Shown here: positions 1,588 through 57,987 of the stretch, piece by piece
Layout: each line of letters begins with the position of its first letter
Numbering within the stretch: position 1 is the first letter of the stretch
IMG/VR virus record: IMGVR_UViG_3300006805_000031
Location: 1-57,987 of that record
Source of the DNA: a virus
Length of the DNA stretch: 57,987 nt
Reading direction: 5' to 3' (one strand)
Program-made: the position numbers and the translations under genes
The notes under the pieces: model-generated
The model's database searches: none
Seen by the model: only the letters and a program-made list of their open reading frames with translations
What the model was told of the DNA's origin: nothing

Positions 1588-1770
1588 TCACTCAATGAAA
1601 GTGATGTCTCTAAGCGGGATAGCTTCTGAAGGCTCAACTCCGCTAGAACACTTCATGCATTGCCTCTTATTCTTGATGTCGAATTCGTCATCCGGGTACA
1701 AAAGCCTTTCGCATTTCGGGCAGTAAAGATGGCCTTCGTTTTCCTCCCCAATCAGATTGATTTTGATCAT
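1588..1770 (-). CDS. Small zinc-ribbon protein, 60 aa
   Basis: This 60-residue protein has two cysteine pairs, CPKC near residue 17 and CMKC near residue 38. They are separated by about 17 residues, which is the spacing of a four-cysteine zinc ribbon. An acidic C-terminal tail follows. Its ATG overlaps the stop codon of the Mre11-Rad50 fusion gene (ATGA), indicating translational coupling and co-expression with recombination genes. A role in nucleic-acid or protein binding is plausible for such ribbons but cannot be specified. Confidence 0.75.
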   Translation of the reverse strand: MIKINLIGEENEGHLYCPKCERLLYPDDEFDIKNKRQCMKCSSGVEPSEAIPLRDITFIE

Positions 1771-4700
1771 TGCTGCTGCATGATGCAGGACTTCCCATCC
1801 TGCCCCTTTCCCACCTCGATAATGCCATCAAACGCCTCTTTGATGTTTGGCACGTGTGTGATAACCAAGATGAACCGAAAGTAGCTCCTAAGGGCTCGTA
1901 GAAGCCGCACACAGGGTTCGATCTGGTTCTCGTCGAGCGTCCCAAACCCCTCATCGATAATCATGAAGTCGGGCTTTGGAAGCGTTGAGATCTGGTGCAG
2001 CACACAACGAATTGCGATCGAGGCAATCGTCTTTTCCATTCCAGAACCAAGCTCCAAAGGCGTGCTGCCGTCGGGATAAATGAGGCGAATCTCCACACCT
2101 CCCTTGTCCTCATCCGTGGATAGCTCAATGTCAAAATCTACGACACCAGCAAGAAGCATTTTTAGATTTGCATTGAGATCAGGCATGAGGGAGCCCAGAA
2201 AGATGTTCTGAACGCCTCTCTTGCTAAGACCGGCCGAGACAAGGGAGTGAATCTTGATCTGCTCTTTTAGGTCGTAGGCTCTTGACAGCTTCTTGCTATT
2301 CTCATCGAGCTTGAGCGCCGAAACGGCATTGTCTCTCTTTAATGCCTCTAGCGAGTCTCGACATACATCCCGGCTGCTCTCCATCTGAAAAAGAGCCCGC
2401 TTGGCGGCGTCGACCCGCTCCCTGACCCTCTTTGCCGAGAAAAGGGCCTCAGCAATCTTTTCAGCCTCCAAGTTTCTTTCGCATGCATCGATGAAACCTC
2501 GCTTCTTGTGGATGGCAATTTCCAATTCAGAAATCTCCGAAAGGACCCCCTTATGTTCACTCTCAATTTTCTTGAGCCGGAGGCGACCTTTAGAAACTTT
2601 GCTCTCAAGCTCCTCCAGCTCAAGAGTCCCGAGAGTGGATAGTTCAGTTTCGTAAGAGGCTACGTTTTCATCTGATTGCTCCAGGGATGCTTGTAGGGCG
2701 GGTAACTTCTTGTTTGCCTCAACGGCATCGTGGATGTAGTGGCAGCTTGGGAACTGGTCGCCACATGGGACAAGCTGCAGCTTCTTCGTTTCCTTTTTGA
2801 GGGCCAAGATTTCCTTGTGAAGCTGAGCATTCTTGGCCCTCTCCTGCGTGAGGCTTGACCGAACTTCTGCGGCGTTTTTCAGTTTGCTTTTAAGCTCTTC
2901 CTCATCAACACCCTTCACGAAAGAAAGGATGCTTTCTTTTTCTTTCACCCAGTCCATCGAGCACTTCTTTGTAAGAGAGGCCTGTAGCTCTTGCATTTGG
3001 CTCTGCAGAGCCAAGAGTTCGCTGGCTAGTTTCTTGACGTTAAATGTCTTGTCTTCCGAGCGAATGCGATCCAGTTCTGCCCGAGCAGAAAGACAGTCGG
3101 CATTCAGCTTCAAAAGTTCAGCTTCAGCAGCTGAAATCTTAAGCTCAAGCTCTTGAAGCTGAGCCTTGTTGGATGCCACAAGCTCCGCCTGAGTTTCAAG
3201 CGGCGAAGAGTTCAGCAGGAACTTTGATTCCGTTTCTAGTGCAGTGAGACGTCGGCGGGCATCGGCGTACATGCGCTCAATAAGATCCAAACCGACCACC
3301 CTTGAAAGAAAATGCTTGCGTGCAGGAGCGTCATGATTTACAAACTTCATGACATTAAACTGCGTAGAGACAGCTGTCATGAGAAAGTCATCGGAACCAC
3401 CTACGACTCGCTGAATGCTCCTGTCTGTTTGGTTGCGTTGTTCCCCCGTGAAGTCTTCATTGTCGGTTACGAACTTGACAGTCGTTAGGGACGTTTCCTG
3501 CAGCTTGTTTTTGACACGCTGCGTCTTTCGAAAGACGTAGTGTCGTTGGCCATTGACAATGAATTGAACCTCTGCAGAACCAGCTGAGGCATTCTTGTTG
3601 ATCATGTGATGCATCTTCTGGCTATCACGATCTGATACGTTGTGGAGGCCATACATCAATGATGCGACCAGCGATGACTTGCCAGTTCGATTTGGGCCCA
3701 TGATCCCAACAATACCTTGCAGGGGATCAAACTTGATGCTATTATCCTCTCCAAACGCAAAAAGGTTTGAGAAGTTCATGCATGACAAAGTCCAGACATT
3801 TCCTCTCTGCAGGTCCTCCTCATGGGCGTTTGCATGGTACAAGGCAGCTGTCAGATCCTCCATTCCGGCCCATGTGCTTTTCGCAAAGCGCTGATCGTTG
3901 TAGAATTTCTGCAATGCATTGAAAATGCTTGCTGCTCCGAACTTAAGTCCCTTTCCGCTGACGGCACCTTGAATACGCTCTTGTAGATTTTTGTCGTCGA
4001 TCTTGGGAACAATCTCAAGAGGCGAGCACTGCCTCACCAAAGCGTCGGAGAGCTTCTGAAAGTCTACGGCGGGGACAGGGACATCCGAGCGGACCCTCAC
4101 TCGACCACCAGAAACCAAATTGGCGGCTGCCTTCATGGTGTTCTTGACGCTGCCCGCCCAATCAATGGTTTGGAATGGGCATGGATTTACGAGCTTAACC
4201 CAAGCGTAATCACGGACGCTTTTATTTGCGGCATCAAGGTCCCAAACAATGAATCCGTGCTCTAGGTCCTCTGCGTAAGTGTTTTGTAGGGCTGAGCCTG
4301 GATATGCAATCCAGGGCATGTTCTTGCCATTTGGGAAGTCTTTGGTTCCGAGAGTTTGGTACTTGTGGATGTCCCCCAGGAAAACAACGTCATAGCCAAG
4401 AGCCGTAAAGTCTCCGACCTTGACATGTCCCTCAATGTTCCATTCCGCCTCAGATACGCTACCTGCGACTGGGCCATGGTAGCACCCCACCAGCATCGCT
4501 TCTTCACCCGCCTCTTGGCGTGGAGAGGAATCCCAGCCACCCTCATCAAAAATGGAGTGCACATAGAATTTGATCGTCTCATCAGACGATGTCGTGTGCG
4601 AATAAAGACCGCTGTGCTTCCAAACCTGAATTCTTGGATGGTTAACCGCAGAGACAATCGGCGAGACAGCGTCTTGGCGGGTCAGGTTTGTGAGTGCCCC

Positions 4701-4946
4701 ATCGTGGTTTCCAAGGATGAGGCGGGTTTCTGCAGCGTCCCCCAATAGCTTCAACCACCAAGACATCAACTCGATGTACTCTGGGGTGATGCCGGTAGTC
4801 TTGGTATGAAAGATGTCGCCGCCGACAAAGATCATATCCACATTGTGACTGCGCACCTTGTCAACGAAATCCTCGAAGACCTTACGAATCTCCTCGTGCC
4901 TGGAGATTCCACGGATATGAATGTCGGAAATGTGAGCGATTCTCAT
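1767..4946 (-). CDS. Mre11-Rad50 (gp47-gp46 / SbcD-SbcC) fusion nuclease-ATPase
   Basis: One 1059-residue chain combines the two subunits of the double-strand-end processing complex used in phage recombination-dependent replication. The N-terminal part is a calcineurin-like phosphoesterase with all expected metal ligands: D8 and H10 (SDIH), D44 (GGD), N80/H81 (GNHD), H157 (CYHG) and H194 (GDIH). From about residue 395 an SMC/Rad50-type ATPase follows. It has Walker A GPNRTGKSS (around 420), two long coiled-coil arms flanking a cysteine pair (CGDQFPSC) in zinc-hook position, a signature-like LGSGMEK and Walker B FMIIDEGFGTLDE (about 994-1006). T4 and bacteria encode these as two proteins. No stop or frameshift separates the halves here. 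The preceding primase gene ends 12 bases upstream. Confidence 0.93.
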   Translation of the reverse strand: MRIAHISDIHIRGISRHEEIRKVFEDFVDKVRSHNVDMIFVGGDIFHTKTTGITPEYIELMSWWLKLLGDAAETRLILGNHDGALTNLTRQDAVSPIVSAVNHPRIQVWKHSGLYSHTTSSDETIKFYVHSIFDEGGWDSSPRQEAGEEAMLVGCYHGPVAGSVSEAEWNIEGHVKVGDFTALGYDVVFLGDIHKYQTLGTKDFPNGKNMPWIAYPGSALQNTYAEDLEHGFIVWDLDAANKSVRDYAWVKLVNPCPFQTIDWAGSVKNTMKAAANLVSGGRVRVRSDVPVPAVDFQKLSDALVRQCSPLEIVPKIDDKNLQERIQGAVSGKGLKFGAASIFNALQKFYNDQRFAKSTWAGMEDLTAALYHANAHEEDLQRGNVWTLSCMNFSNLFAFGEDNSIKFDPLQGIVGIMGPNRTGKSSLVASLMYGLHNVSDRDSQKMHHMINKNASAGSAEVQFIVNGQRHYVFRKTQRVKNKLQETSLTTVKFVTDNEDFTGEQRNQTDRSIQRVVGGSDDFLMTAVSTQFNVMKFVNHDAPARKHFLSRVVGLDLIERMYADARRRLTALETESKFLLNSSPLETQAELVASNKAQLQELELKISAAEAELLKLNADCLSARAELDRIRSEDKTFNVKKLASELLALQSQMQELQASLTKKCSMDWVKEKESILSFVKGVDEEELKSKLKNAAEVRSSLTQERAKNAQLHKEILALKKETKKLQLVPCGDQFPSCHYIHDAVEANKKLPALQASLEQSDENVASYETELSTLGTLELEELESKVSKGRLRLKKIESEHKGVLSEISELEIAIHKKRGFIDACERNLEAEKIAEALFSAKRVRERVDAAKRALFQMESSRDVCRDSLEALKRDNAVSALKLDENSKKLSRAYDLKEQIKIHSLVSAGLSKRGVQNIFLGSLMPDLNANLKMLLAGVVDFDIELSTDEDKGGVEIRLIYPDGSTPLELGSGMEKTIASIAIRCVLHQISTLPKPDFMIIDEGFGTLDENQIEPCVRLLRALRSYFRFILVITHVPNIKEAFDGIIEVGKGQDGKSCIMQQQ

Positions 4947-18857: not shown

Positions 18858-20426
18858 CTATAGCAAATCAGCAGCCAACGTAGCTAGCTCTGAACGCTCA
18901 CCCTTGAGCAAAGTGATGTGTCCGGCAATCGGATAATCCTTAAACTTCTCAATAGCGTGAGTGAATCCAGAGCTAAGAGCGTCCATACTGGAAACGTCAA
19001 TCTGAGAGAGGTCTCCTGTGAGTACGATTTTCGAACCCTCTCCGGAGCGAGTGATGATTGTCTTCAGCTGGTGTAGGGTAAGATTCTGCGCCTCATCAAC
19101 AATGATGAAGCACTTCGGGAACGAACGGCCACGAATGAACGTAACGGCTTCGACCTCAATCTGCCCCTTGAGCACCATGGTGTTAACGAATGCATTCCTG
19201 GAGAAATCCTCGCTGTCGGGCTGCTGAAGGGGCTTATTTGCTGAACCCTTCTTGTCCTTGTCGCCCTTCTCCTTCTTTTCGCTTGCCAAACCTTTTGAGT
19301 TTGGGGCACACAAGAATTCAAGGTTGTCTCGAATTGGAGCCACCCAGGGCGACATTTTTTGCGCTGCGGTCCCCGGGAGGAAGCCAACGTCTCTGCCCAC
19401 TGGTTCAATTGGGCGAGTGATGATCATTTTGGTGTAGATGTTTGACTCAAGAACCTGTTGCAGGCCAGCCGCAATAGCGATCAAAGTCTTGCCCGTTCCC
19501 GCCGTTCCCGCAAGAGTCACCAAAGAGACATTTGGGTCCAAGAGCAGATCGAGCGCAAACCCCTGCTCCTTGTTTTTCTGCGAAAGACCAAAGACCACGT
19601 TTTGGTTTTTGCGCTCGATGATGATCTTGTAGGTCCCAAGTTCGGGGTCCAACACACGGACCATTGCCGACTGGCTGGCGTGAGTTACAGCATCCTCATA
19701 CTTCACAACGCAGATCTCATTGGGTCTGAGATCGTATTCAGGGTTCTGGAAGAGCGAGTGACAAGCACTCTGGGACTTCTTGACATTGAAGTACAGCTGA
19801 TCAATGATCGCTGGGTCATCGACACTGATCCTGGTCACGCCAGAATACAGGGAGTCATTCTTGACAGTAACGTGCGATGCCTTGTAGTCTTCAGCAGGAA
19901 TGCCCACTGAGTCGCATTTGAGGCGGACGTTAATGTCTTGAGAGATCAGCGTAACATCAGCACTTTCCTCCGTCTGTTGAACAGCTTCGAGTAGCGCCGC
20001 ATCCTTGTCCATCCCTGTTGCAACTAGGCAAAGAACCCGATCCCGAATTTTGGGATTAGATTCCCGATCCCACTGGGCAATCTCCCGCTTCAGGTAGAAA
20101 GCACAGCCAATAATCTTGTTGTCTACCTTTGTGGGGTCGAGTCCTTCAGGAACGTAGGTCTCAAAGTCGCAGGAGACGACCCGAAGCGTCCCTCCCGAGG
20201 GCAAGGTAATACCCTCGGCGAGCGAGCCCTCTTTGCGATACCCGTCAATTTTCCGGGCAATTGCACGAGCATTTTTGCCGACTTCGTCTGGCCGAGACTT
20301 GTGACGATCCAGCTCTTCCAGGCAAACAATCGGGATGTGAACGAGATTACCTCCTGTGCACAATTTGTCGAGGCAGTCATCATCCGAGAGTAGGACATTT
20401 GTGTCCAGCACGTAATTCTTGTTCAT
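18858..20426 (-). CDS. phoH: PIN-PhoH protein (PhoH2/YlaK type)
   Basis: The protein fuses an N-terminal PIN nuclease-like domain to a PhoH ATPase. The PIN part starts NYVLDTNVLLSDD (acidic residues in the first strand) with LEELDRHK further on. The ATPase part has Walker A GTAGTGKT, the PhoH-typical TRPIEPVGRDVGFLPG stretch and Walker B FIIVDEAQN, ending with LTGDLSQID and a TLLKGERSELA segment. Proteins of this type are linked to RNA unwinding and cleavage. PhoH genes are common in large phages, but their role there is unsettled. An insertion of Lys/Glu/Asp-rich sequence (SEKKEKGDKDKKG) lies between the ATPase motifs. It is followed by the structural block after 30 bases. Confidence 0.93.
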   Translation of the reverse strand: MNKNYVLDTNVLLSDDDCLDKLCTGGNLVHIPIVCLEELDRHKSRPDEVGKNARAIARKIDGYRKEGSLAEGITLPSGGTLRVVSCDFETYVPEGLDPTKVDNKIIGCAFYLKREIAQWDRESNPKIRDRVLCLVATGMDKDAALLEAVQQTEESADVTLISQDINVRLKCDSVGIPAEDYKASHVTVKNDSLYSGVTRISVDDPAIIDQLYFNVKKSQSACHSLFQNPEYDLRPNEICVVKYEDAVTHASQSAMVRVLDPELGTYKIIIERKNQNVVFGLSQKNKEQGFALDLLLDPNVSLVTLAGTAGTGKTLIAIAAGLQQVLESNIYTKMIITRPIEPVGRDVGFLPGTAAQKMSPWVAPIRDNLEFLCAPNSKGLASEKKEKGDKDKKGSANKPLQQPDSEDFSRNAFVNTMVLKGQIEVEAVTFIRGRSFPKCFIIVDEAQNLTLHQLKTIITRSGEGSKIVLTGDLSQIDVSSMDALSSGFTHAIEKFKDYPIAGHITLLKGERSELATLAADLL

Positions 20427-20440
20427 GAATTTGCTCAGGT

Positions 20441-20740
20441 TCAGCTTTTCTTGGCAGGCTTCTTCTTCGGGGTTTCCGTGGGGGTAACCACTTCGGGCTC
20501 AGACTGAGCCTCTCCCTCGGTCTCGGTCTCGGAGGCTACTTCCGGCTCGGGCAGTGGCGCCTCAGTGGGCGGCTCTTCGGGTGGAGCGGGCGGCGACTCA
20601 ACAGGAAACACTTCCTGCTTGGGTGCCAGAGCGGGGCCGGCTTCTAGCTCGGCACGCTTAGAGGTCAATGCGGCTACATCATGCGGCGCATTGGGGTCAA
20701 GCCCAAGTTCCTCTACTTCAAAACGTGTTCGGTTCGACAT
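20441..20740 (-). CDS. Small acidic Pro/Glu-rich protein
   Basis: From ATG 20740 the product is about 99 residues. A short ordered start (MSNRTRFEVEELGLDPNAPHD) is followed by a long low-complexity tail of Pro, Glu, Thr and Ala, ending in KKKPAKKS. It is almost certainly disordered. The frame is open further upstream to 20800, but a GAGAAAGAG purine stretch just before 20740 and the overlap with the preceding gene favour the shorter form, which overlaps that gene by 23 bases. Function is unknown; such tails often mediate binding to partners. Confidence 0.6.
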   Translation of the reverse strand: MSNRTRFEVEELGLDPNAPHDVAALTSKRAELEAGPALAPKQEVFPVESPPAPPEEPPTEAPLPEPEVASETETEGEAQSEPEVVTPTETPKKKPAKKS

Positions 20741-21023
20741 TGTTCTCTTTCTCTCGTTTCTTTCTCTCTTCTTGTTTGCGGGCTCTTTCGGATTTCTCAA
20801 AGGCTTCGATTTCTTTCTGAACCGCCTTATCCATCTGTTTTTGTCTGGATAGCTTCAGCAAGAGGCGCCGCAACAGCAGCGCCTGCTTCGAAATCTGGGA
20901 AAGGGCCTTGCGAAAATCAATAGAGGTTCGAAGCGTTGGTCTTTTCTGCAGCTTCTTCACGAGAAGGTTACAGATCTTGACCTGGTTTTTTAGCTCCTCA
21001 AATTCCTCTAGGATTTTCGCCAT
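20718..21023 (-). CDS. Small helical, highly basic protein, 101 aa
   Basis: This is an almost wholly helical, Lys/Arg-rich protein. Coiled-coil-like repeats (LEEFEELKNQVKICNLLVKKL, then KALSQISKQALLLRRLLLKL) lead to a strongly charged tail (ERARKQEERKKREKEN). I do not recognise a family. It begins 3 bases after the ClpP-like gene and overlaps the next gene. The basic helix could bind nucleic acid or act as a scaffold partner of the neighbouring protease, but neither is shown by sequence. Confidence 0.65.
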   Translation of the reverse strand: MAKILEEFEELKNQVKICNLLVKKLQKRPTLRTSIDFRKALSQISKQALLLRRLLLKLSRQKQMDKAVQKEIEAFEKSERARKQEERKKREKENNVEPNTF

Positions 21024-21026
21024 GGC

Positions 21027-21632
21027 TCAGCGTCCGTCTTTCGTCGAGATCAGTGTGTCGGCAATGCCGAATTTAATGCACTCATTTGCATCGAAGTAAT
21101 GGTCGTGACCCTTGCGCATAGCGGCATGAACAGCCGATTGAGTCTGTCCGGTTTCTTGAGCAAGCAGCTTCTCAAGCTGCAGCTGCATCCGCACAAGCTC
21201 CTTGGTCTCGGCTTCGATCTGGAAAACAGTCCCCTGGGCACCAGAGCTGATGGGGTGCATCATCACTCGTGTGTTTTGCCCAACAGAACGGGTTCCCTTT
21301 TTGCCGCTGGCAACAATAAGCACACCTGCAGACATGACCTTTCCGAGGCCGACGGTGTGCACGTCACACGGCAAGTACTTGATGACATCGTACAGCGAAA
21401 GCATCTCGTCAACGGAACCGCCGTACGTAGAAACAATCAGCGTGATTGGGGCAGTGGGATCCTGATTTGCAAGCTCGACAAGAGTCGCAATCACTTGACT
21501 AATAGAGTCTTCCGAGACCGCTCCCGAAAGATAGACAATTCGGTGGCTAAGTTGCATCACGCTGCCGGCGGGAGGGCCATCATGGTCGTGATCGTGGGAC
21601 TTGGACTGGAGTTTTTTAGAGTTGAGAGCCAT
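21027..21632 (-). CDS. ClpP-like serine protease, possible head-maturation protease
   Basis: The 201 residues follow the ClpP fold. Strand VYLSGAVSEDSI precedes the glycine-rich LIVSTYGGSVDEM. The nucleophile is S101 in GKVMSAGVLI, the histidine is H126 in MMHPISSG, and D177 in GHDHYFDANE fills the usual aspartate position, followed by KFGIADTLI. Phage ClpP relatives often process prohead proteins, although T4 itself uses the unrelated gp21. It could instead act with a host Clp ATPase. The N-terminus carries a metal-binding-like HDHDHD stretch (residues 13-18) not usual for ClpP. It is encoded between small proteins of unknown function. Confidence 0.88.
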   Translation of the reverse strand: MALNSKKLQSKSHDHDHDGPPAGSVMQLSHRIVYLSGAVSEDSISQVIATLVELANQDPTAPITLIVSTYGGSVDEMLSLYDVIKYLPCDVHTVGLGKVMSAGVLIVASGKKGTRSVGQNTRVMMHPISSGAQGTVFQIEAETKELVRMQLQLEKLLAQETGQTQSAVHAAMRKGHDHYFDANECIKFGIADTLISTKDGR

Positions 21633-21640
21633 TTGTTCCT

Positions 21641-21919
21641 TTATTCTAGGTTACCGAGAACCGTGCTGTTGAGGGCTTCTTCAGTGACACCCTTAGCCAC
21701 CGAAAAATTCTTTTTGTCAAGGTATTCTTTTGTCAACTCGGTGACTGCTCGACTGAGCTGAAGGTTGACAAAAGACGTGGCTAAGCACTCCACGACAAAC
21801 ACCACCTCGTCATCAGACAGCTGCATTTTGCTGACAACGCTGTTTGCGATATCTCGACAATACGTGCGGCGCTTGGCCAGCTTCTCTTGCGGTGTTTCGC
21901 CAAAAATACTCGTGCTCAT
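21641..21919 (-). CDS. Hypothetical small helical protein
   Basis: From ATG 21919 the product has 92 residues, mostly helical (KLAKRRTYCRDIANSVVSKM, DDEVVFVVECLATSF, AVTELTKEYLD). I recognise no family. The frame is open to 21955, but the upstream gene ends at 21922 with GAGGAGATGTAAGA, which places a strong Shine-Dalgarno sequence correctly for 21919. The gene lies directly before the ClpP-like protease and may act with it. That is context only. Confidence 0.7.
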   Translation of the reverse strand: MSTSIFGETPQEKLAKRRTYCRDIANSVVSKMQLSDDEVVFVVECLATSFVNLQLSRAVTELTKEYLDKKNFSVAKGVTEEALNSTVLGNLE

Positions 21920-21921
21920 TC

Positions 21922-22398
21922 TTACATCTCCTCTAGAAACGGAACCACTTTGCAAAGATTCGACGACAAAATCACTAGCCGCTTACCTTCAATTTTTGAA
22001 GCCTGTCGGTTCTTGGTCATGATCACGCTTTCTCCCCATCGAGAGTTCTCAATGATCCAAGCTACATGCTCGTATGTTGCGACATCACACTTGTGGCGGT
22101 CAAGTGCCTCTTTGATGCCTGCACCAAGACCGAGCGAGACGTCCTCTTTCGTAACGGCAGACCAGCTATCTGTCATGCCGCCCTTCATGGGCTCAGAAAC
22201 ACCGACCTCCAAAACCTTGTGAACCAAGTCGCAGTTGTCGCATTTCACATACTTTTCAACACAACTGCCACTGTCGTCAATAACGCTAAAGACAGGAAAG
22301 CGATGAAAAAGCTTTGTTTTACGGTCGTCGGTGTCTTCCAGCTGACGAGTCCAAGCAGGCTGGCAAAGACACTCAACGAAATGACGGACTCCCTCCAT
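21922..22398 (-). CDS. Hypothetical protein with cysteine pairs, 158 aa
   Basis: The family is not recognised. Cysteines occur as ECLCQ near residue 10 and CDNC near residues 53-56, a spacing that could bind a metal ion. The remainder is mixed alpha/beta, with a hydrophobic C-terminal strand (GKRLVILSSNLCKVVPFL). It is the second gene of the left-reading small-gene series, 15 bases after the first. Nothing else can be said about function. Confidence 0.72.
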   Translation of the reverse strand: MEGVRHFVECLCQPAWTRQLEDTDDRKTKLFHRFPVFSVIDDSGSCVEKYVKCDNCDLVHKVLEVGVSEPMKGGMTDSWSAVTKEDVSLGLGAGIKEALDRHKCDVATYEHVAWIIENSRWGESVIMTKNRQASKIEGKRLVILSSNLCKVVPFLEEM

Positions 22399-22413
22399 GT
22401 CAATTCCGCCTTT

Positions 22414-22653
22414 TCAAGAGGCGCTGCTTTTGGTGGCATCTTGTTGAGCCACCTCCTGAGCGAAACTGGTGATACGATTATCCAGGCTTGTGTACATGCG
22501 GTCCGCAGTCTCAAGCAGACACTTTTGGAGTGTCGAGTAAAGTTCGGCCTGCTGCTCAACAGGGAGCGTGGACTCCTTCATCTTGTTCGAAAATTCGGTC
22601 AAAACAAGCTCAGAGAAGTCGAACGGAAAACGAGAGATGTCATTGCGGCTCAT
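22414..22653 (-). CDS. Hypothetical small helical protein, 79 aa
   Basis: A 79-residue, mainly helical protein (FSELVLTEFSNKM, VEQQAELYSTLQKCLLETADRMY). No family is recognised. It is the first gene of the long left-reading set and diverges from the plus-strand gene at 22703, sharing a 49-base intergenic region. The AT-rich CTACAATAATTCC element lies just upstream on the minus strand, with no evident Shine-Dalgarno sequence. Confidence 0.7.
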   Translation of the reverse strand: MSRNDISRFPFDFSELVLTEFSNKMKESTLPVEQQAELYSTLQKCLLETADRMYTSLDNRITSFAQEVAQQDATKSSAS

Positions 22654-22702
22654 AGGTGCAGGAATTATTGTAGTGCAGGCCTGTGGCGCCTACGTAAACA
22701 AT
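22654..22702. promoter_or_regulatory. Short divergent promoter region
   Basis: This 49-base space separates two divergent genes. On the plus strand CCTACGTAAACAAT abuts ATG 22703, with CTACGTA ending 6 bases before it. On the minus strand CTACAATAATTCC lies 13 or fewer bases before ATG 22653. A GGCGCC palindrome (22685-22690) sits between. Neither gene has a clear ribosome-binding site here. Promoter assignment is by position and composition only. Confidence 0.35.
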
Positions 22703-24007
22703 ATGAGAACTGGCGCCAAAAAAGCTCTCTTTGAGCAAAAATACGTATCCGATGGACTTCTTCTTGAGGCCATCAAGCCTGAAATCGCCCGGCAGGCTTC
22801 TGCGCTAATTGAGAAACTCAATGAGTTCGAGGATCGAATTCCTGCCGAAAAAAGCCAAAATATTGTCAAGGCAATCAACAAGGCCCAGGCGGATATTCAA
22901 GGGTTCATTGGTTCGTCCTCGATCGCTCGCTGGATCAAAAAGAACCTTTCGCTATCAACAACTCGCAACCCACTCGAAGAAGGGTTGGAGCTTGTGACGC
23001 AGCTGGCGTCTTTCTTCAATCTCATGAAATCCATGAAAGGGCTACTGGAGAAAAAGAGCAAACTTCAAGATGGCCAAAAGACCATCTCGGATCTTCTTGG
23101 TGGGCGAGGTTCGAAAAATTACCAATCGTTCCGGAAGATGCTTGTGCAGGCGCTAAAGCCATCCACCAAACAAATTTCCTCAGGCGGTGTTGCAGGCGGC
23201 ATTTCGAAGCTGCTGCACTACGCAACAGGCGGCAACGATTCATTCTTTGGGGTTGCTATCTCATCCATGGTTGATGAAGTTTGCGACAAATACAGCGTTG
23301 AAGACGTTGCAACTCTTGGTGAATCAAAAGTCGATGTGAATCTTCAGTATTACAAGGGTCTCGCTAAAGTCAGCGACTTCTTTGGGAAGACAGCAGCTGC
23401 GCCAGATCCACAAGCGGCCGTGGACAAACTTGCGGCCGCTGGAGAAGCGCAAGCTCAGTCTGGTGTGGGCGACGCCAAGGGCACAACTCAAAAAATGGGT
23501 TCTGAAGTGGGTGCAAAGCCCACAAGGGGCCCAAGGTCACAGGTTCGTGACTACGCCTCTAAGCTTCCCACTGCCGAAAAGATCTTTCCGGAAAGCCTGC
23601 AGGAGCTTGCAAACATCAAGAAACAGATTGATGGGAAGTCAGCTGCGGAGTACCTCAAAGATTTCATCTACGCAGATCGGCAAAAGTGGAACGCCTTTTT
23701 GAACAACCAAGTCCAGAAAGCTCTGGCTTCAAAAGCAGCATTGCCAGAACTCAAAAAGGTCATCAAAAGCGCAATGATGGATCGTGTAAAAGCAGAAAAG
23801 TCATTGGCAGCTTTTTTGACGAAAACGTGGAAAGAGGGCAAAGAGGGTAACCCTGCGGCTCGGGCAATTCAGGTGAAAAACGCCGTGGAAGCGACAGCGT
23901 CCAAGAAATTTGCGGCGCTTGTGGTCCCTCCAGGAAAGCCGCAAGCTCCAGTCGCACAAGCCGAAGGTCTTGTCCAGACACTGAAAGCTCTAGGCTTACT
24001 TTCCTAG
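22703..24007 (+). CDS. Lone plus-strand helical protein, about 434 aa, unknown
   Basis: I do not recognise this protein. It is Ala/Lys-rich and mostly helical. It has an EIARQASALIEKLNEFEDR coiled segment, a Gly-rich middle (SSGGVAGGISKLLHYATGG), a low-complexity linker of Ala, Gly and Gln (about residues 235-285) and a basic helical C-terminus. The frame is open from 22568, but any start before 22654 would overlap the divergent gene; ATG 22703 follows a CTACGTA box. It is the only plus-strand gene within the left arm and its 3' end overlaps the GroEL-like gene by 12 bases. An internal virion or DNA-associated protein is possible, without proof. Confidence 0.7.
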   Translation: MRTGAKKALFEQKYVSDGLLLEAIKPEIARQASALIEKLNEFEDRIPAEKSQNIVKAINKAQADIQGFIGSSSIARWIKKNLSLSTTRNPLEEGLELVTQLASFFNLMKSMKGLLEKKSKLQDGQKTISDLLGGRGSKNYQSFRKMLVQALKPSTKQISSGGVAGGISKLLHYATGGNDSFFGVAISSMVDEVCDKYSVEDVATLGESKVDVNLQYYKGLAKVSDFFGKTAAAPDPQAAVDKLAAAGEAQAQSGVGDAKGTTQKMGSEVGAKPTRGPRSQVRDYASKLPTAEKIFPESLQELANIKKQIDGKSAAEYLKDFIYADRQKWNAFLNNQVQKALASKAALPELKKVIKSAMMDRVKAEKSLAAFLTKTWKEGKEGNPAARAIQVKNAVEATASKKFAALVVPPGKPQAPVAQAEGLVQTLKALGLLS

Positions 24008-25231
24008 GTCCTCAACAATAACACCTGAAAGTGATGTCAGGTGTCGCACCAAGGCCGCACTCATGTCGAATGCGGCTTTGTACGTTGACGCAGGAACAAT
24101 TTCAGCGCCAAACATCACTCGCTCAGCCTCGGAAAGCACCACGGCGCCACTGTTTTTGTAAGCCAGGATCACTTTGAAGGCCCTATCCAAGTTTTGCTGC
24201 AGCATTTTGTTGCGTGAATTTTCCGGAATCAAAATGTCCCAGCGTGATGGACTTAGGCTGAAAATCCTATCACGATAGATCTTTGCCTCTTCTGGAGTTG
24301 CCGATGAAGCTTTTTCTTCCAGCTCGTCGAGTTTAGCTTTTGTGCGGAAGCTACTGCCGTTGACGAATACCACAAGGCCGAACTTGCTAATCTCAACTCG
24401 CTGCAACATAGGAAAGTCTTCGAACTTCAGAGACGGCAAGGTAAGGCCTCCCTGCAAATCAATGACTTGACATCCTGTAATTGTCGACATGTCAAAGAAT
24501 GTGTTTACCGTTGGATTATCCAGCGGGAACTCACACAGAAGAAGTTTCAGTGTGCCACGATAAAAGTTCACCGAAGATGTATTCTTGATATCGTCTCCAA
24601 ATGACCTGGCGCAAACCAAAAATGGTGTGTTGGTTTTTGAGGCCTCTTGGAGCTGAACATCGAGCTGTGAAACGTCCTGAATGTGGCCGTCGTAGCACAA
24701 GATCCTGCAATTGCTTAGATTCACATCGCCAGGACTGTATTGGCGGGGGTGAAAGACGTGCCCAGATGTCTTCGCAATGTAGATTTCGGAAAGGTCGGGG
24801 CGGGCATTTTGAATGCTGACACGGGATAGGCCCTTAGACGCATCCAGGAACTGTTTGGCTACCACCCCCGCATCGGCACCGCACAAATCGATTAGAGAGG
24901 CTTCCAGGGGCCCTCGTGAGGGTCTAATTGCCTGGGTCGTCTTCGTGATGGCGGGCTTTCCCAAAAGTGCATGTCTGGCAAGCTTGAGTGTCGCTCGAAG
25001 GGCGCCTGGGCCTGCTTTCTCGGCATTCATTGCATGCTCAAGGCACGCTGTCACCACCAAAGCCTCTTGATTATTGGTGTTGTTGATGTTGTAGCTACTG
25101 GCCAGAGGGCCGCCAGCAGCCCAACTCCCAGCCTTACCCACAATAGGGCTATTAAGATCTGTCACAGAAATAGCCGCATTGATTGCCTGAATCAGATCTT
25201 GTGGTTCGATAGCTGAGTATTTTGTGGCCAT
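23996..25231 (-). CDS. Divergent, compact GroEL-like chaperonin
   Basis: From ATG 25231 the protein has 411 residues (host GroEL about 548). The middle follows the GroEL apical domain: ILCYDGHIQDVSQLDVQL, then TPFLVCARSFGDDI, then a LKLLLCEFPLDNPTVNTFFDMS segment and ITGCQVIDLQGG. These parallel the GroEL series ILLADKKISNI, KPLLIIAED, VAAVKAPGFGDRRKAML and ATLTGGTVI. Further on, a VVFVNGSSF/KLDELEEKASS/EEAKIYRDRIFSLSPS run mirrors the return to the equatorial domain, ending with RAFKVILAYKNSGAVVLSEAERV. The ATP-binding GDGTT motif is not visible in the shortened N-terminus. It may be a chaperonin with altered ATPase or a structural derivative. A TTG at 25249 overlapping the upstream stop is an alternative start. 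Confidence 0.72.
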   Translation of the reverse strand: MATKYSAIEPQDLIQAINAAISVTDLNSPIVGKAGSWAAGGPLASSYNINNTNNQEALVVTACLEHAMNAEKAGPGALRATLKLARHALLGKPAITKTTQAIRPSRGPLEASLIDLCGADAGVVAKQFLDASKGLSRVSIQNARPDLSEIYIAKTSGHVFHPRQYSPGDVNLSNCRILCYDGHIQDVSQLDVQLQEASKTNTPFLVCARSFGDDIKNTSSVNFYRGTLKLLLCEFPLDNPTVNTFFDMSTITGCQVIDLQGGLTLPSLKFEDFPMLQRVEISKFGLVVFVNGSSFRTKAKLDELEEKASSATPEEAKIYRDRIFSLSPSRWDILIPENSRNKMLQQNLDRAFKVILAYKNSGAVVLSEAERVMFGAEIVPASTYKAAFDMSAALVRHLTSLSGVIVEDLGK

Positions 25232-25245
25232 CCCAAAATGGTAGC

Positions 25246-25812
25246 TCAATGACCAGCTTTTGTCGTCAGCTCGTAGATTGTCTTGATCAAAACGCCAAAC
25301 AAGCTAAGGATGCCTAGCAAAAGCGACCAAAAGATCTTGCCGCCCCATTCCCGAGCTAGGTTTGCTGATTTGTGATCGTGCCTAGCATTGGTAAGAGCAC
25401 CAGAGTCCGACTCAAGTTCTGCTTTCCATTTCCGGAGATCTTCAAGATCTTCTTCGATCACTTCAAGCTTCCTTGCGATGTTATTGGCTCCTTCTGTCTG
25501 AACCTTCTCAACGTCTTTGATTCGTGAAAACACTCCACGATCAGGTTCATACAAGATATTACTAAGATCTTCCATTTTCTGGAGGACTGTTGAGTGAGAT
25601 TTCTCAATATTGCTGATCTTCTGAAGCAATGAGTCAAATCCCCCATCAAACACAGGTGAACTGAGTTTTTGATGTAGGAATTTCAGCAATGCATTTAGCT
25701 CTTTCTGCTTTTCCCCCTCAGAGTGCTTAGAGGTGATTAGCGCTGAGGGCAGCTTAGGGGCAGCTGCAGAGTCCTGAGCTGAAGGTGGGTTGTTCTTGCG
25801 GTACTTTCTCAT
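25246..25812 (-). CDS. Coiled-coil protein with C-terminal membrane segment, 188 aa
   Basis: This is a predicted tail-anchored protein. A basic, Pro/Ser-rich start is followed by long helical coiled coil (LLKFLHQKLSS to KLEVIEEDLEDLRKWKAELES). One hydrophobic segment near the C-terminus (IFWSLLLGILSLFGVLIKTIY, about residues 162-182) ends six residues from the terminus. The layout resembles small phage membrane proteins such as spanin-, holin- or exclusion-type factors, but no signature decides. It lies just upstream of the GroEL-like gene (overlapping stop and possible start) and begins at the edge of the large intergenic region. Confidence 0.75.
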   Translation of the reverse strand: MRKYRKNNPPSAQDSAAAPKLPSALITSKHSEGEKQKELNALLKFLHQKLSSPVFDGGFDSLLQKISNIEKSHSTVLQKMEDLSNILYEPDRGVFSRIKDVEKVQTEGANNIARKLEVIEEDLEDLRKWKAELESDSGALTNARHDHKSANLAREWGGKIFWSLLLGILSLFGVLIKTIYELTTKAGH

Positions 25813-25914
25813 GTTGTTTTGGGTAAATAGAGAAAAGATCAGATCGGTGCATTTTTTGGTTAACAGCCGGCTGAAGGGATCCTACACTAAAAATAAGCAA
25901 TTTCGTATCTCTGT

Positions 25915-25961
25915 TCTCTGCAAGAGAGGTACGAACGAAGTGAGTACCGAACAAGCAGAGA
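25915..25961 (+). repeat. Hairpin A (nested stems, core GAACGAAGTGA)
   Basis: The outer stem TCTCTGC (25915-25921) pairs with GCAGAGA (25955-25961). Inside are the spacer AAGAGA, an inner stem GGTAC (25928-25932) with GTACC (25944-25948), the 11-base core GAACGAAGTGA (25933-25943) and a GAACAA spacer. The core can fold further as AC-GAA-GT. The same layout, with different stem bases, recurs in hairpin C. Confidence 0.85.
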
Positions 25962-25974
25962 GTATTTCTTCTCT

Positions 25975-26012
25975 ATAAATTGCGAGCGAGCGTCAGCGAG
26001 CAAGCAATTTAT
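25975..26012 (+). repeat. Hairpin B (core GAGCGTCAGCGA)
   Basis: The stem ATAAATTGC (25975-25983) pairs perfectly with GCAATTTAT (26004-26012). The 20-base loop reads GAGC, core GAGCGTCAGCGA (25988-25999), GCAA. The core has a four-base GTCA turn closed by GC/GC. Another GCAATTT at 25897-25903 could compete for the left arm. Confidence 0.85.
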
Positions 26013-26040
26013 TTCTCTATCTGATCTAAGCTAGATCAAG

Positions 26041-26113
26041 ATCAAATCCCATTTCTCTACGAGAGAGTTCCGAGCGAAGCGAGGAGCGAACAAGTAGAGA
26101 AATGGGATTTGAT
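26041..26113 (+). repeat. Hairpin C (20-bp perfect stem, nested, core GAGCGAAGCGA)
   Basis: The left arm 26041-26060 and right arm 26094-26113 are perfect reverse complements over 20 bases. The 33-base interior repeats the hairpin A layout: spacer GAGAGA, inner stem GTTCC (26067-26071) with GGAGC (26083-26087, one G-T pair), core GAGCGAAGCGA (26072-26082), then GAACAA. The core contains GCGAAGC, a sequence known to form an exceptionally stable DNA mini-hairpin. Confidence 0.9.
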
Positions 26114-26148
26114 TTGTGTCTGAGGGCACTGCAGCAGATCTAGAGCTA

Positions 26149-26193
26149 ATCCCAAATTTGGTCACTCACTTCGTTCGTTCCCAAATTTGGGAT
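26149..26193 (-). repeat. Hairpin D (minus-oriented core GAACGAAGTGA)
   Basis: ATCCCAAATTTGG (26149-26161) pairs with CCAAATTTGGGAT (26181-26193), 13 bp. Read on the minus strand, the 19-base loop is GAAC, core GAACGAAGTGA (complement of 26166-26176), GTGA. The core is identical to that of hairpin A but inverted in orientation. Each arm is nearly palindromic itself (CCCAAATTTGGG in the right half). Confidence 0.85.
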
Positions 26194-26211
26194 CCATGGG
26201 GCAGCTGGAGC

Positions 26212-26266
26212 TTGATCTAGGTTTGATCTAGGATTGATCTAGGTTTGATCTAGGTTTGATCTAGGA
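26212..26266 (+). repeat. Five 11-bp tandem repeats TTGATCTAGG(T/A)
   Basis: Units at 26212, 26223, 26234, 26245 and 26256 read TTGATCTAGGT, TTGATCTAGGA, TTGATCTAGGT, TTGATCTAGGT and TTGATCTAGGA, varying only at the last base. The 11-bp period puts sites on nearly the same helix face. Each unit holds one GATC (potential adenine-methylation site) and one CTAG. The arrangement resembles iterons or a multi-site operator. Confidence 0.93.
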
Positions 26267-26327
26267 TTCTAATTTGTATTGGGTAAAGTGATCTAGTCTT
26301 AACCTAGCACTATCATGCTCAGTCTTT

Positions 26328-26356
26328 CCCAAGATCTCGCTGCGCTCGATCTTGGG
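26328..26356 (-). repeat. Hairpin E (minus-oriented core GAGCGCAGCGA)
   Basis: CCCAAGATC (26328-26336) pairs with GATCTTGGG (26348-26356). The loop is exactly the 11-base core, GAGCGCAGCGA on the minus strand, with a GCA turn closed by GC/GC. The stem bases next to the loop are GATC, as in hairpin F. Confidence 0.88.
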
Positions 26357-26413
26357 GACTCAGTGGTGGCTAAATAGATCTAGATATTACTGATCTAGCT
26401 TGATAGATCTGAT

Positions 26414-26441
26414 CCAGGATCTCGCTAGCGCTCGATCCTGG
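26414..26441 (-). repeat. Hairpin F (minus-oriented core GAGCGCTAGCGA)
   Basis: CCAGGATC (26414-26421) pairs with GATCCTGG (26434-26441). The loop is exactly the 12-base core, GAGCGCTAGCGA on the minus strand, with a GCTA turn closed by GC/GC. Length and turn type match hairpin B, but the orientation is opposite. Confidence 0.88.
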
Positions 26442-26478
26442 GGCTTCAGAACTTTGTTGATGAGCAGAGCTTGGTGAG

Positions 26479-26491
26479 CTAAAATGCCCCT
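26479..26491 (+). promoter_or_regulatory. Candidate late-type -10 box before first right-arm gene
   Basis: CTAAAAT (26479-26485) ends 6 bases before ATG 26492 (CTAAAATGCCCCT-ATG). There is no well-placed ribosome-binding site, the nearest purine run (GGTGAG) being about 13 bases away. The position and composition match boxes before other strand-switch genes. It is inferred, not proven. Confidence 0.4.
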
Positions 26492-28396
26492 ATGTCGAAG
26501 CAGATCGTATTTGTCTCTGATTACTTCTCAGATCAGTTGACTGGAGGTGCAGAGCTTAGTCTTGGAACCCTGATGGATTCAGCGTCTGAGTTTGGCGCTA
26601 AAATCCTTAGGTTGAACTCCAAGGATGTGACTGCTGATCTCATTAACCTGCACAAGAATTCCTATTGGGTATTCGGTAACTACGCTGGGGTACTTCCTGA
26701 GTTGCTTCAGAAAATCTCTGGCGCTATTCGGTATTCAGTAATCGAATTTGACTACAAGTATTGCAAACACCGACTCCCTCAGGCTCATACAGACTCCGTG
26801 TGCGACTGTGAAAATGGATTCCTTGGTAAGTTCATTTCTGGCTTCATGTACGGAGCTGAAACACTTTGGTTTATGTCTCAAGGTCAGCTTGAGCACTATG
26901 CCCAGAAATTTCCGAGCCTTGTCGACCGCCCTATGCGGGTCTTGGGTAGCACTTTTTCTAAGCAGGATCTTGAAAAGATTGTGCTGCTTTCGCATACACC
27001 CAAGAAGGATCATTACCTTGTCCTTCAGTCGGACTCTTGGGTGAAAGGTACCGATAAGTCGGTTGAGTATTGCAAGGAAAACAATCTCCCGTACAAGCTT
27101 GTTGGTGGTGTGAGTTACGATGAAATGCTCAGTGAGCTGGCACAAGCAAAGGGTCTTGTCTATATGCCTCAGGGCTATGACACGTGCCCACGGCTTGTGA
27201 TCGAGGCGAAAATCCTTGGGGCTGAAATTCGCACGAACTCTTTTGTTCAGCACATCAGCGAGCCCTGGTTCTATAACCTCGAATCCATTTTCGAATGGCT
27301 CCTGAAAAGCCCCGCAATGTTTTGGGCGGACACTCTTCGCCGGGCCGAGAAAAAATACACGATCTCTTCGTACTTCACGACCCGCAATTGCGTGCAGCAG
27401 GAATACCCATTCGAGCAATCCATTGAGTCGTGTTTTGCATTTTCGGATGAAATTGTTGTCGTCGATGGCGGCAGCACAGATGGAACGCTAGACCGTCTAG
27501 AAGCCCTCAGGAAGCGTTTTGAGGCGCAGGCTGACAAAGTATTCATTGTGCACTCAAACGACGTTTATACGGGCCGCCAAGTGGATGCATCGATGGCTCT
27601 AGCCGATGGCCAGCAGAAAGCTCTTGCTCGTTCCTTGTGCACTAGTGATTTCTGCTGGCAAATGGATGTCGACGAAATTGTGCACGAAGATGACTGCGCT
27701 AAGATTCTTGAACTCGCCAAGAACTTCCCGAAGGCTCCAATGATTGCTCTGCCAGTCACGGAATACTGGGGTGGATTCAGCAAGATTCGAATGGATATCA
27801 CTCCATGGAAGTGGCGTATGGGCTACAATAGTCCTCGGATCACGCATGGGGTTCCCGCAGATTTGCGGACAGCCACAGGGGCTGTGGGTGGAACGGATGG
27901 CTGCGATCCTATTGATGCGCAGACTGGTGATAGGATTCCCCACATTACGTTCTGGGATCAAAACGCCGCACACGCTAGGGAGCATGCACTTCTTGCAAAT
28001 CCGGAAGCTGTGCATGATTACTCGGATTGGTTCGCCAGAGTAACAGCTGAACTTCCCGGCGTGCATCACCTTAGTTGGCTAGACATCAATCGAAAGATTC
28101 GGTTGTACAGGGATTATTGGTCCAAGCACTGGGATGCACTGTTCGGCTCAGATGAGCCAAGCAATCACTTTTTCCCAGGTAAGAAGTGGACGGACGTCAC
28201 AAATCAGGACATTGAGGAGTTGGCAAAGAAGCTCACCTCACAGACTGGTGGTCATATCTTTCATGCTCCGTGGGCCGGCCAAAGAACTCCATGGATTGAC
28301 GCAAATGCGTACAATTTCAAACAACCACCAGCTTGCCTTAATGTTCAACGGGAAGCTACACATGAAACGCAAAAGGATGTAGAAAATGATTGGTAA
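26492..28396 (+). CDS. Bifunctional glycosyltransferase: GT-B-like plus GT2 (GT-A) domains
   Basis: The 634 residues hold two sugar-transfer units. Residues 1-285 resemble a GT4/GT-B enzyme: IVFVSDYFSDQLTGGAELSL at the start, LVLQSDSWVKGTDKS at 177-190, and YMPQGYDTCPRLVIEAKILG (224-243) like the donor-binding region. From about 290 a GT2 domain follows with VVVDGGSTDGT (322-332) and the metal-binding QMDVDEI (390-396). The two parts may build consecutive linkages on a cell-surface or virion glycan, or modify DNA. It opens the right-reading operon after the hairpin region and its end overlaps the next gene by 11 bases. Confidence 0.87.
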   Translation: MSKQIVFVSDYFSDQLTGGAELSLGTLMDSASEFGAKILRLNSKDVTADLINLHKNSYWVFGNYAGVLPELLQKISGAIRYSVIEFDYKYCKHRLPQAHTDSVCDCENGFLGKFISGFMYGAETLWFMSQGQLEHYAQKFPSLVDRPMRVLGSTFSKQDLEKIVLLSHTPKKDHYLVLQSDSWVKGTDKSVEYCKENNLPYKLVGGVSYDEMLSELAQAKGLVYMPQGYDTCPRLVIEAKILGAEIRTNSFVQHISEPWFYNLESIFEWLLKSPAMFWADTLRRAEKKYTISSYFTTRNCVQQEYPFEQSIESCFAFSDEIVVVDGGSTDGTLDRLEALRKRFEAQADKVFIVHSNDVYTGRQVDASMALADGQQKALARSLCTSDFCWQMDVDEIVHEDDCAKILELAKNFPKAPMIALPVTEYWGGFSKIRMDITPWKWRMGYNSPRITHGVPADLRTATGAVGGTDGCDPIDAQTGDRIPHITFWDQNAAHAREHALLANPEAVHDYSDWFARVTAELPGVHHLSWLDINRKIRLYRDYWSKHWDALFGSDEPSNHFFPGKKWTDVTNQDIEELAKKLTSQTGGHIFHAPWAGQRTPWIDANAYNFKQPPACLNVQREATHETQKDVENDW

Positions 28397-30725: not shown

Positions 30726-31163
30726 ATGAAAAACAGAAATCTCACCCACTCCGATTGTTGGGCAACACCACCTGAATTCTACAACTCCCTTGACAAAGAA
30801 TTTGGTTTCGACTTTGATCCGTGCCCGCTACGTGACCCCGAAACCATCACGCCAGAAACAGATGGCCTCCTCATCGACTGGGGGAACATGAATTTCGTGA
30901 ATCCCCCCTACAAGTTGCCCCTAAAGACGGCATTTGTGAAAAAGGCAATTGAAGAGCAGAAGAAGGGCCGGACTTCGGTTATGCTACTGCCTGTCTCCAC
31001 GAGCACTGTCCTCTTCCACGACTACATCAAACCCAATGCAGAGGAGATTCGATTTGTCAGAGGGCGAATCAAGTTCATTGGAACGAACACATTCGGCGAA
31101 ACTGTAAACAAAAATGCAGGAATGCACGACTCGATGGTCGTTGTGCTCCGAGGACACAAATGA
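30726..31163 (+). CDS. Dam-like DNA N6-adenine methyltransferase
   Basis: This 145-residue protein resembles the phage DNA N6-adenine methyltransferase family (Dam, as in phage T1-type enzymes). It has WATPPEFYNSLDKEFGFDFDPCP at the start, the catalytic MNFVNPPY (N-P-P-Y, about residues 55-62), VMLLPVSTST and a C-terminal MHDSMVVVLRG strand. These enzymes methylate adenine, often in GATC, though the site here is not proven. The gene is short but has the usual family length. Its stop overlaps the next start (ATGA). The GATC-rich region at 25813-26491 is a natural candidate target. Confidence 0.85.
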   Translation: MKNRNLTHSDCWATPPEFYNSLDKEFGFDFDPCPLRDPETITPETDGLLIDWGNMNFVNPPYKLPLKTAFVKKAIEEQKKGRTSVMLLPVSTSTVLFHDYIKPNAEEIRFVRGRIKFIGTNTFGETVNKNAGMHDSMVVVLRGHK

Positions 31164-56137: not shown

Positions 56138-57987
56138 ATGTCATACGGAATTTTTCAGTTTAGAAGAGGTACAGCGTCTGAATGGTCTGGCGCAAATCCA
56201 ATTCTTCTTTCTGGCGAACTAGGTCTAGAAACAGACACTTCTCTTTTTAAGATTGGTGATGGGGTAACACCCTGGAATTCACTTGCGTATGGTGGGGTAA
56301 GAGGAGTTACTGGCGCCCAAGGTGTTCAGGGGCCAACAGGGGCACAAGGCCCTGCAGGCGCAACTGGATCTCAAGGTGTAACAGGCCCTGCAGGGCCGCA
56401 AGGCTCGACCGGCGCCCAAGGGCCGCAAGGCACTCAAGGTCCAACAGGGCCACAGGGGGCTACTGGCTCTGTTGGCTCCACAGGGGCAATCGGGCTTCAG
56501 GGTTCAACTGGCGTGCAAGGAGCCACAGGTGCACAAGGCGCCCAAGGTGTAACAGGCCCACAAGGAGCCGCTGGGGTGACCGGATCCACTGGGCCAACAG
56601 GTCCTAGGGGTGCAACTGGCGCAACCGGGCCACAAGGTTCAATTGGACCAACAGGCCCACAAGGAAGCACTGGGTCGCAGGGGGCCACAGGCATTCCGGG
56701 CGCAACCGGATCTGATGGTGTAACGGGCCCTGCAGGTCCAACTGGTTTGGTTGGTGCAACCGGGGCACAAGGAGCAACCGGGTCAATCGGCGCAACTGGT
56801 CAACAAGGCGCACAAGGCGCAACTGGCCCTACTGGCCCACGAGGAACGACTGGAGTAGCGGGAGCAACGGGTCCACAAGGTTCTCAAGGCGCCACCGGCC
56901 CTACTGGCCCACGAGGCTCGACCGGGGCACAAGGAGCAACGGGCCCACAAGGCTCAACTGGTGTCCAAGGCTCAACCGGCCCAATTGGGCCCCAAGGAAC
57001 CACTGGGGCTGTAGGACCACAAGGCCAAACCGGAGCACAAGGTGTTACAGGGGTCATTGGCCCAACTGGCTCTCAAGGGCCACAGGGTGCGACCGGCATC
57101 AATGGCGTTACTGGCGTTCAGGGCCCTCAAGGTTCAACGGGAACGCAAGGGGCTACTGGCGCTCCGGGCCCGCAGGGCCCAACAGGCTCAATTGGTACAA
57201 CCGGAATTCAAGGTCACACTGGCTCAATCGGCCCCACAGGACCGCAAGGCGCTCAAGGAACCACAGGACCGCAAGGTAACACGGGCTCAGCTGGGGTTCA
57301 AGGCCCCACAGGCCCCCAGGGAGCTACAGGTACCCAAGGAGCCACCGGCACACAAGGCCCTGCAGGGGCTACAGGCACAACAGGACCTGCCGGCGCACAA
57401 GGTGCAACTGGAATCCAAGGAGTAACAGGAGTCGACGGCCCAACAGGTGCCCGAGGAGCCACAGGTGTTCAGGGGTCCACTGGCGCCCAAGGCCCCACTG
57501 GTGCGCTTGGCCCACAAGGTGTCACCGGCTTTACAGGCTCAATTGGCCCCCAAGGCGCCACTGGAGTAATTGGAGCCACAGGTGCCCGAGGAGCGACAGG
57601 CATTCAAGGTGCTACTGGAACTCAAGGGCCGACCGGGTCAATTGGTCCAACCGGCACTCAGGGTGTCACTGGCTTGCAAGGTCCAACTGGGCCAATTGGC
57701 TCTACAGGGCCACAAGGCCCTCAAGGAGTCACTGGCCCCACTGGAGCCCAAGGGCTGCAAGGAGTGACTGGACCACAGGGTGTAACTGGGGCCACTGGCC
57801 TACAAGGCCCAACTGGCTCGATTGGGGCTACTGGTGCTGCTGGGCCAATTGGCCCAACAGGTAGTCAAGGCCCCGCTGGCATTGATGGAGTTACGGGCGC
57901 AACTGGCCCCGTCGGCCCACAAGGTGTCACCGGCCCTCAGGGCCCAACTGGCTCTCAAGGACTTCAGGGCGCTACTGGCCCAACAGG
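56138..57987 (+). CDS. Collagen-like tail fibre protein, C-terminus beyond window
   Basis: ATG 56138 directly follows the previous stop, and the frame stays open to the right edge (616 codons). The head, [37 protein letters not shown], is a common phage tail-fibre N-terminal module (RRGT...LxxGExGxxxDT...KIGDG). After GGVRG it becomes continuous Gly-X-Y, again rich in GAT, GPT and GPQ triplets. This is probably a long rod-like fibre. Its receptor-binding end is outside the window. The repeats at DNA level (e.g. GGCCCAACTGG variants) favour length changes by recombination. Confidence 0.88.

Follow-up and report, generated by a model that had tools for sequence, protein, structure and literature searches.

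Genomic setting of the intergenic region

The window analysed here, the whole stretch of 57,987 bp, is the complete IMG/VR virus record IMGVR_UViG_3300006805_000031, probably an incomplete contig that represents a fragment of a phage genome. In its ORF maps, a gap of 679 bp between divergent genes (25813-26491) marks the meeting point of a mainly leftward and a mainly rightward gene arm, and this gap holds a complete array of six DNA hairpins. The leftward flanking gene (25246-25812, minus strand) encodes a protein of 188 aa to which no function was assigned, and the rightward flanking gene (26492-28396, plus strand) a protein of 634 aa with a glycosyltransferase family 2 domain. A gene for a Dam-family DNA N6-adenine methyltransferase (PF05869) follows on the plus strand at 30726-31163, a primase gene of the DnaG/T4 type lies on the left arm, and a late-sigma-like gene was found among the window ORFs. 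The ORF at 1767-4946 (1059 aa) matched both SbcD-like profiles, with the N-terminal phosphoesterase, and SbcC-like profiles, and is apparently a fusion of the two subunits.

No DnaA boxes were found in the gap, and GC skew gave no clear switch or origin signal at the array. A search for tRNAs returned none, and no Rfam family was matched. A sigma-70-like promoter match (TTGATG-17-TAAAAT) occurs just 5' of the rightward gene at 26457-26485 on the plus strand, its count being not above chance, and the T4-type late promoter TATAAAT was found at a single site, fewer than expected by chance. Judged by eye, a clear Shine-Dalgarno sequence stands upstream of few predicted genes of the window. A collagen-like repeat protein is encoded at 51091-53319, and more 18-bp repeats of the same type occur at 56500-57400, near the right contig end.

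Six hairpins with a common core

An initial annotation of this DNA had described six hairpins with unrelated stems and a nearly constant core. The pattern GARCGNAGYGA occurs four times and GAGCGNNAGCGA twice in the 57,987 bp, with all six matches located within 25933-26433. Chance expectations are 0.52 and 0.10, respectively, and no dinucleotide-preserving shuffle of the window attained the observed counts, which confirms the shared core in a single gap. A general scan for GA-2bp-GN(N)A-2bp-GA with at least two further pairs returned exactly the six hairpins from the window, compared to a mean of 0.22 and a maximum of 2 in shuffles (n=60).

Hairpins A, B, and C have their core on the plus strand. 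Hairpin A (25915-25961; core GAACGAAGTGA at 25933-25943) consists of an outer 7-bp stem, an internal loop, and an inner 5-bp stem, and hairpin C (26041-26113; core GAGCGAAGCGA at 26072-26082) has the same layout with a perfect 20-bp outer stem. Between them, hairpin B (25975-26012; core GAGCGTCAGCGA at 25988-25999) carries a 9-bp stem below two stacked GA/GC modules. Hairpins D, E, and F have their core on the minus strand. Two modules are likewise stacked in series in hairpin D (26149-26193; core GAACGAAGTGA at 26166-26176), above a stem of 12-13 bp, and hairpins E (26328-26356; core GAGCGCAGCGA at 26337-26347) and F (26414-26441; core GAGCGCTAGCGA at 26422-26433) have stems of 9 and 8 bp.

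In the predicted folds, 2-bp steps are set apart by 2x2 GA/GA loops. All six sequences form hairpins on both strands, as DNA or as RNA, when each strand is folded, as had been suggested. In A and D, the innermost 2-bp step stays open with DNA parameters and closes with RNA parameters. The covariation of the R and Y positions holds, with A-T in A and D and G-C in B, C, E, and F, and the description of variable stems topped by a constant GNA/GNNA core and an adjacent covarying pair is supported. Every GA step adjoining the tip stands in a YGAR context, with a pyrimidine before and a purine after the GA. This context favours sheared tandem G.A pairs, which fits the sheared GA/GA pairs proposed for the flanks.

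The exact strand order (+++---) would arise by chance in 1 of 64 cases and is thus only suggestive. If synthesis ran outward from the middle to the left and to the right, the core strand would be the template at all six hairpins, and the outward RNAs of both flanking genes would bear the complement, with a TNC loop, and not the GNA core.

Duplication and conservation of the fold

Over 64 nt, hairpin A matches hairpin C at 75% identity, and a 22-nt segment is common to E and F at 86%. While the stems are variable, their description as unrelated was therefore right only in part, as C is a diverged duplicate of A and F of E, changed by compensation. Across the 47 nt of hairpin A, nine differences separate it from C. 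Eight of the nine make up four two-sided pair changes (G-C to A-T, A-T to C-G, A-T to G-C, and G-C to a T-G wobble); the remaining difference falls at an unpaired position. In both copies, 14 of 14 pairs are kept. The probability of at least four compensatory pairs from nine randomly placed changes is about 5e-5. E and F differ by one two-sided change from A-T to G-C and by one base inserted in the loop. As the four two-sided changes between A and C preserve pairing, the comparison of the copies shows that the fold is conserved and points to selection on structure. Snap-back copying of the fixed core was considered as a source of the stems; it would explain the perfect arms but not the compensatory changes that separate A from C.

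Tandem GATC repeats

Five iteron-like tandem 11-bp repeats (TTGATCTAGGT) with a GATC in each and the consensus TTGATCTAGG(T/A) lie on the plus strand at 26212-26265. Further copies of TGATCTAG are located at 26031 (reverse), 26289, and 26391. Counting both strands, TGATCTAG occurs eight times in the gap and is absent from the rest of the window. With 22 sites in 679 bp, the gap is also the densest GATC stretch of the window, where about 3.7 sites would be expected from the window's rate (P about 7e-11). The GATC repeats are interleaved with the hairpin array, and a link between the GATC cluster and the Dam-family gene is possible. The 11-bp repeats, the 22 GATC sites, and the Dam-family methylase had not been mentioned in the initial annotation.

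Comparison with related phages

The related set comprised 14 viral loci reached through the glycosyltransferase, each of whose records was scanned for the core pattern. The large contigs of this group contain homologues of many replication, structural, and glycosyltransferase genes of the window. Hairpins of the array kind were found in none of the 14 records, the few core matches being stemless, and the related contigs inspected contained no comparable GATC-repeat or hairpin region. The region is therefore not a conserved origin of the phage group, and as far as these data go, judged against the 14 related records, the array is specific to its own lineage. The absence of the core and its covarying stems from relatives had been named at the outset as evidence against the proposal, and this is in part what was found. 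Blastn of the region against phage records gave no match, hairpins C and E as blastn queries against phages gave short or mostly coding matches, and the peptide patterns of the protein encoded at 23996-25249 had no match in viral contigs. A nested pattern of the A/C type had three matches in viral contigs, none of them a comparable hairpin.

The PhoH and glycosyltransferase genes lie on the same strand in four related contigs (G002, G003, G007, and G010) and on opposite strands in the window (18858-28396). This difference places the array at or near a rearrangement boundary. From the gene order, a gene block appears to have been inverted, with one boundary near the hairpin array.

The same cap in other viruses and cells

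Specificity of the core to the phage group was not supported, as the same core occurs on unrelated stems in viral contigs, bacteria, and haloarchaea. The GTAC-flanked core was found in 18 viral contigs, compared to one for a rearranged core of equal dinucleotides. Pairs of cores 25-55 bp apart, selected without regard to stems, occurred in at least 120 viral stretches in either relative orientation, whereas a control with the same base composition gave 13. Among the matches listed, 73 of 494 distinct cores have stems of at least 5 bp, where 1.1 were expected and the maximum was 5 in 300 rounds of re-pairing the flanks. The same-orientation set accounts for 33 different inner stems among the matches listed. 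The first stem pair is Y.R in 65 of the 73 stems among the matches listed, and in 27 of 33 when each same-orientation stem is counted once, with the second and third pairs balanced in the listed matches of the same-orientation set.

Cores are oriented with respect to co-directional neighbouring genes in a ratio of 22:20, or 11:9 by contig, among the matches listed, where genes are the longest ORFs and the matches include some simple repeats or sequences from one repeated family. This ratio gives no strand bias of the RNA type and favours a role at the level of DNA over RNA. Together with the compensatory changes between A and C, the random gene orientation elsewhere agrees with the initial annotation that a structured single-strand element is the likeliest functional form. 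The array may plausibly be read by a replication or recombination protein of the phage.

In four viral contigs (L022, L030, L032, and L038), the GTAC-flanked core stands a few tens of bases 5' of an ORF, always on the coding strand. Five homologous viral loci (L027, L029, L036, L037, and L039) share a nested hairpin with an outer stem, an internal loop, and an inner GTAC stem on the same core; its outer stem varies among copies with the pairing kept. At least three same-cap hairpins with differing stems are scattered between genes in each of L198 (627-10317), L258 (11192-11968), and L241 (9778-9903). The same cap also occurs at sites unlike origins. Part of the mixed-orientation set (L322) resembles CGTC REPs and bears the same core.

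Of the cellular genomes, Nocardioides szechwanensis has the GTAC form in abundance, and the form also occurs in haloarchaea, Prevotella, and others. Few hairpins were found around non-GTAC cores in 97 cellular loci. Nocardioides szechwanensis (loci within L043-L136) carries dozens of copies of a two-hairpin repeat, in which GGGAGTAC-core-GTACTCCC is followed by a variable stem around GACGAAGTC, likewise with a C(GAA)G tip. In the literature, the core string appears mostly in primers. The one relevant case is the linear Methanosarcina virus MetSV, whose terminal inverted repeat holds GGGGTGAGCGAAGCGAATCCCC, the same core in a G/C stem (PMC10342651).

An origin-like reading of the region

The region most likely marks a start of DNA copying or of transcription. 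We tentatively favour, at less than an even chance, an origin-like control region which would include the array and combine iterons with template-strand hairpins. A phage or host initiator would bind the TTGATCTAGG repeats, possibly in a Dam-dependent manner, and opening of the DNA or negative supercoiling would allow the hairpins to form as DNA. The GNA-tipped strand would remain folded, whereas SSB could open the complementary strand. The folded hairpin on each template strand would then signal a start to a primase (or an RNA polymerase), and synthesis would proceed away from the middle, to the left past A-C and to the right past D-F. Stems would be free to vary, since in this proposal pairing and the tip alone matter. 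The conserved fold, the template-strand position of all six cores, the GATC repeats, the Dam-family gene, and the primase of the left arm are consistent with an origin, and the gene-direction-neutral cap elsewhere (22:20 among the matches listed) fits such a DNA-level role.

Precedents are found in the ssi sites of RSF1010, the GATC iterons of Vibrio oriII, and the hairpins of phage N4. In the oriV of RSF1010 (IncQ), as outlined in passages of two descriptions, iterons are bound, the DNA is opened, and the stem-loops ssiA and ssiB on the two strands are read by the RepB' primase, with primers at ssi extended in leading-strand mode (PMC4434180, PMC4234260). The phage region resembles this arrangement as outlined there, with tandem iterons and, as candidate ssi sites, stem-loops on both strands in the expected order. 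It differs in having three hairpins per strand instead of the one ssi per strand of those passages, in five 11-bp repeats that are shorter than known IncQ iterons, and in the GNA/GA tip, which is absent from the ssi description in the passages (PMC4434180, PMC4234260). Because no RepA helicase, RepB' primase, or RepC initiator was recognised in the window, membership in IncQ does not follow. In the oriII of Vibrio cholerae, according to passages on the RctB 11- and 12-mers, tandem short GATC repeats lie in a GATC-dense region and can require Dam (PMC2865523). The phage region shares with that account the GATC in each repeat and the GATC-dense surroundings. Unlike oriII, it has no recognised RctB homologue, and the oriII passages describe no hairpin array of this kind.

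Several observations weigh against an origin. No initiator, RepB'-type primase, or RctB homologue was recognised in the window, the gap has neither a DnaA box nor a clear switch in GC skew, the related contigs are without the region, and the cap occurs at sites that are not origin-like.

Alternative explanations

The hairpins could instead act as template-strand promoters like those of the N4 virion RNA polymerase and drive transcription leftward (A-C) and rightward (D-F) along the gene arms, which we consider unlikely. N4 promoters have a 3-nt GNA-type hairpin loop with sheared G:A closure on the template strand; their stem bases are variable if paired, and the hairpins are extruded at physiological supercoiling and survive SSB (PMC4496689). 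The loop sequence of A, C, D, and E fits this type, and all six cores lie on the template strand of outward transcription, as in a divergent promoter region. However, N4 promoters have 5-7-bp stems, a conserved block from -17 to +1, and a dedicated polymerase (PMC4496689), whereas the phage hairpins have long or multi-part stems of up to 20 bp, GA/GA steps, and no common flanking block with a start site in the six. By stem and flank, the array is not an N4 promoter. The window ORFs scanned included no recognisable virion RNA polymerase, on a contig that is probably a fragment, and the late-sigma-like gene suggests use of the host RNA polymerase. The missing orientation bias of the cap towards genes elsewhere also speaks against promoters.

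A second system with a fixed loop on a free stem is the target hairpin of diversity-generating retroelements (DGR). In phage BPP-1, the hairpin/cruciform of the target works with an altered stem but not with an altered loop (GRNA), and its structure was demonstrated as DNA in a supercoiled plasmid (PMC3240598); nanoarchaeal DGRs have GRA triloops (PMC4372165). The phage hairpins share the fixed loop and the free stem sequence. In contrast to the array, the DGR hairpin is single, lies after the variable repeat near a reverse transcriptase, and has a stem that pairs directly to the loop. No variable repeat was seen here, no reverse transcriptase was matched among the window ORFs scanned, and the array lies 5' of two divergent genes; by position, it is not a DGR target. 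By analogy with these known systems, the array may work through a fixed tip on a free stem.

It is similarly improbable that the array is a palindromic repeat of the REP or stem-loop-family kind that entered the phage lineage and was multiplied locally by duplication, with no phage-specific function. The duplicates A/C and E/F would fit such a history, as would the frequency of the same cap in bacterial repeat families (Nocardioides) and CGTC REP-like elements, and the related phages without hairpins. Members of the GTAG and CGTC REP superfamilies are short palindromic sequences that use a small number of loop types, show complementary changes in their stems, and often occur as pairs facing in opposite directions (Di Nocera 2013, PMC3733652). 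Unpaired GTAG or CGTC (TGTC, CCTC) tags were found in the flanks of none of the six hairpins. Unlike dispersed REPs, the phage hairpins are six copies confined to one gap of the 58-kb window, with modules nested or stacked; by tag and dispersal, the array is not a REP. The compensatory changes, moreover, indicate selection on the fold, and the strand order and the GATC repeats would be left unexplained.

Improbable to a greater degree is a recombination or inversion site, at which cruciforms, once extruded, would be cleaved by a resolvase or by the SbcC/SbcD-like nuclease of the phage; the cuts would promote rearrangement or recombination-dependent replication. The fused SbcD-SbcC-like gene (1767-4946) and the rearrangement boundary at or near the array, deduced from the PhoH and glycosyltransferase strands, would suit such a site, but a nuclease target would need neither a fixed loop nor an ordered strand. 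To our knowledge, T4-like phages that have no such array commonly encode SbcCD-type proteins.

Equally poor candidates are RNA elements, be it terminators, leader structures, or mRNA-stabilising hairpins: the core strand of all six gives strong RNA folds, but the region lies upstream of both genes, outward transcripts would bear the complement of the GNA core, GTCA and GCTA, as loops of 4 nt, fall outside the GNRA tetraloop class, and the core elsewhere is antisense as often as sense among the matches listed. A T-run was found 3' of none of the six, so that none has the combination of a G+C-rich stem and a T-run that marks an intrinsic terminator; a terminator scan gave a single match, elsewhere in the window.

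Implications

DNA hairpins capped by such a tip are known, and GNA-tipped DNA hairpins have been recognised in few well-studied cases, the N4 promoters and DGR targets. No description of a dense, strand-ordered array with GATC repeats, or of the breadth with which the same cap is found on different stems, was found in the limited literature searched, which is weak evidence of absence. A wider proposal, which we put forward as doubtful, is that the fixed DNA tip (Y)GA-RC-GN(N)A-GY-GA(R) serves as a general single-strand landmark that can top any stem, in viruses, bacteria, and archaea unrelated to one another, and is conserved as DNA, with the phage array as an unusually dense, strand-ordered example that would direct outward synthesis from a GATC-iteron region. 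If the cap is merely a recurrent palindromic repeat, one DNA fold would still be reused very widely. If the tip marks the starts of synthesis, structured single-strand signals could be sought in uncultured viruses by a sequence rule, and this phage would have an origin model open to testing.
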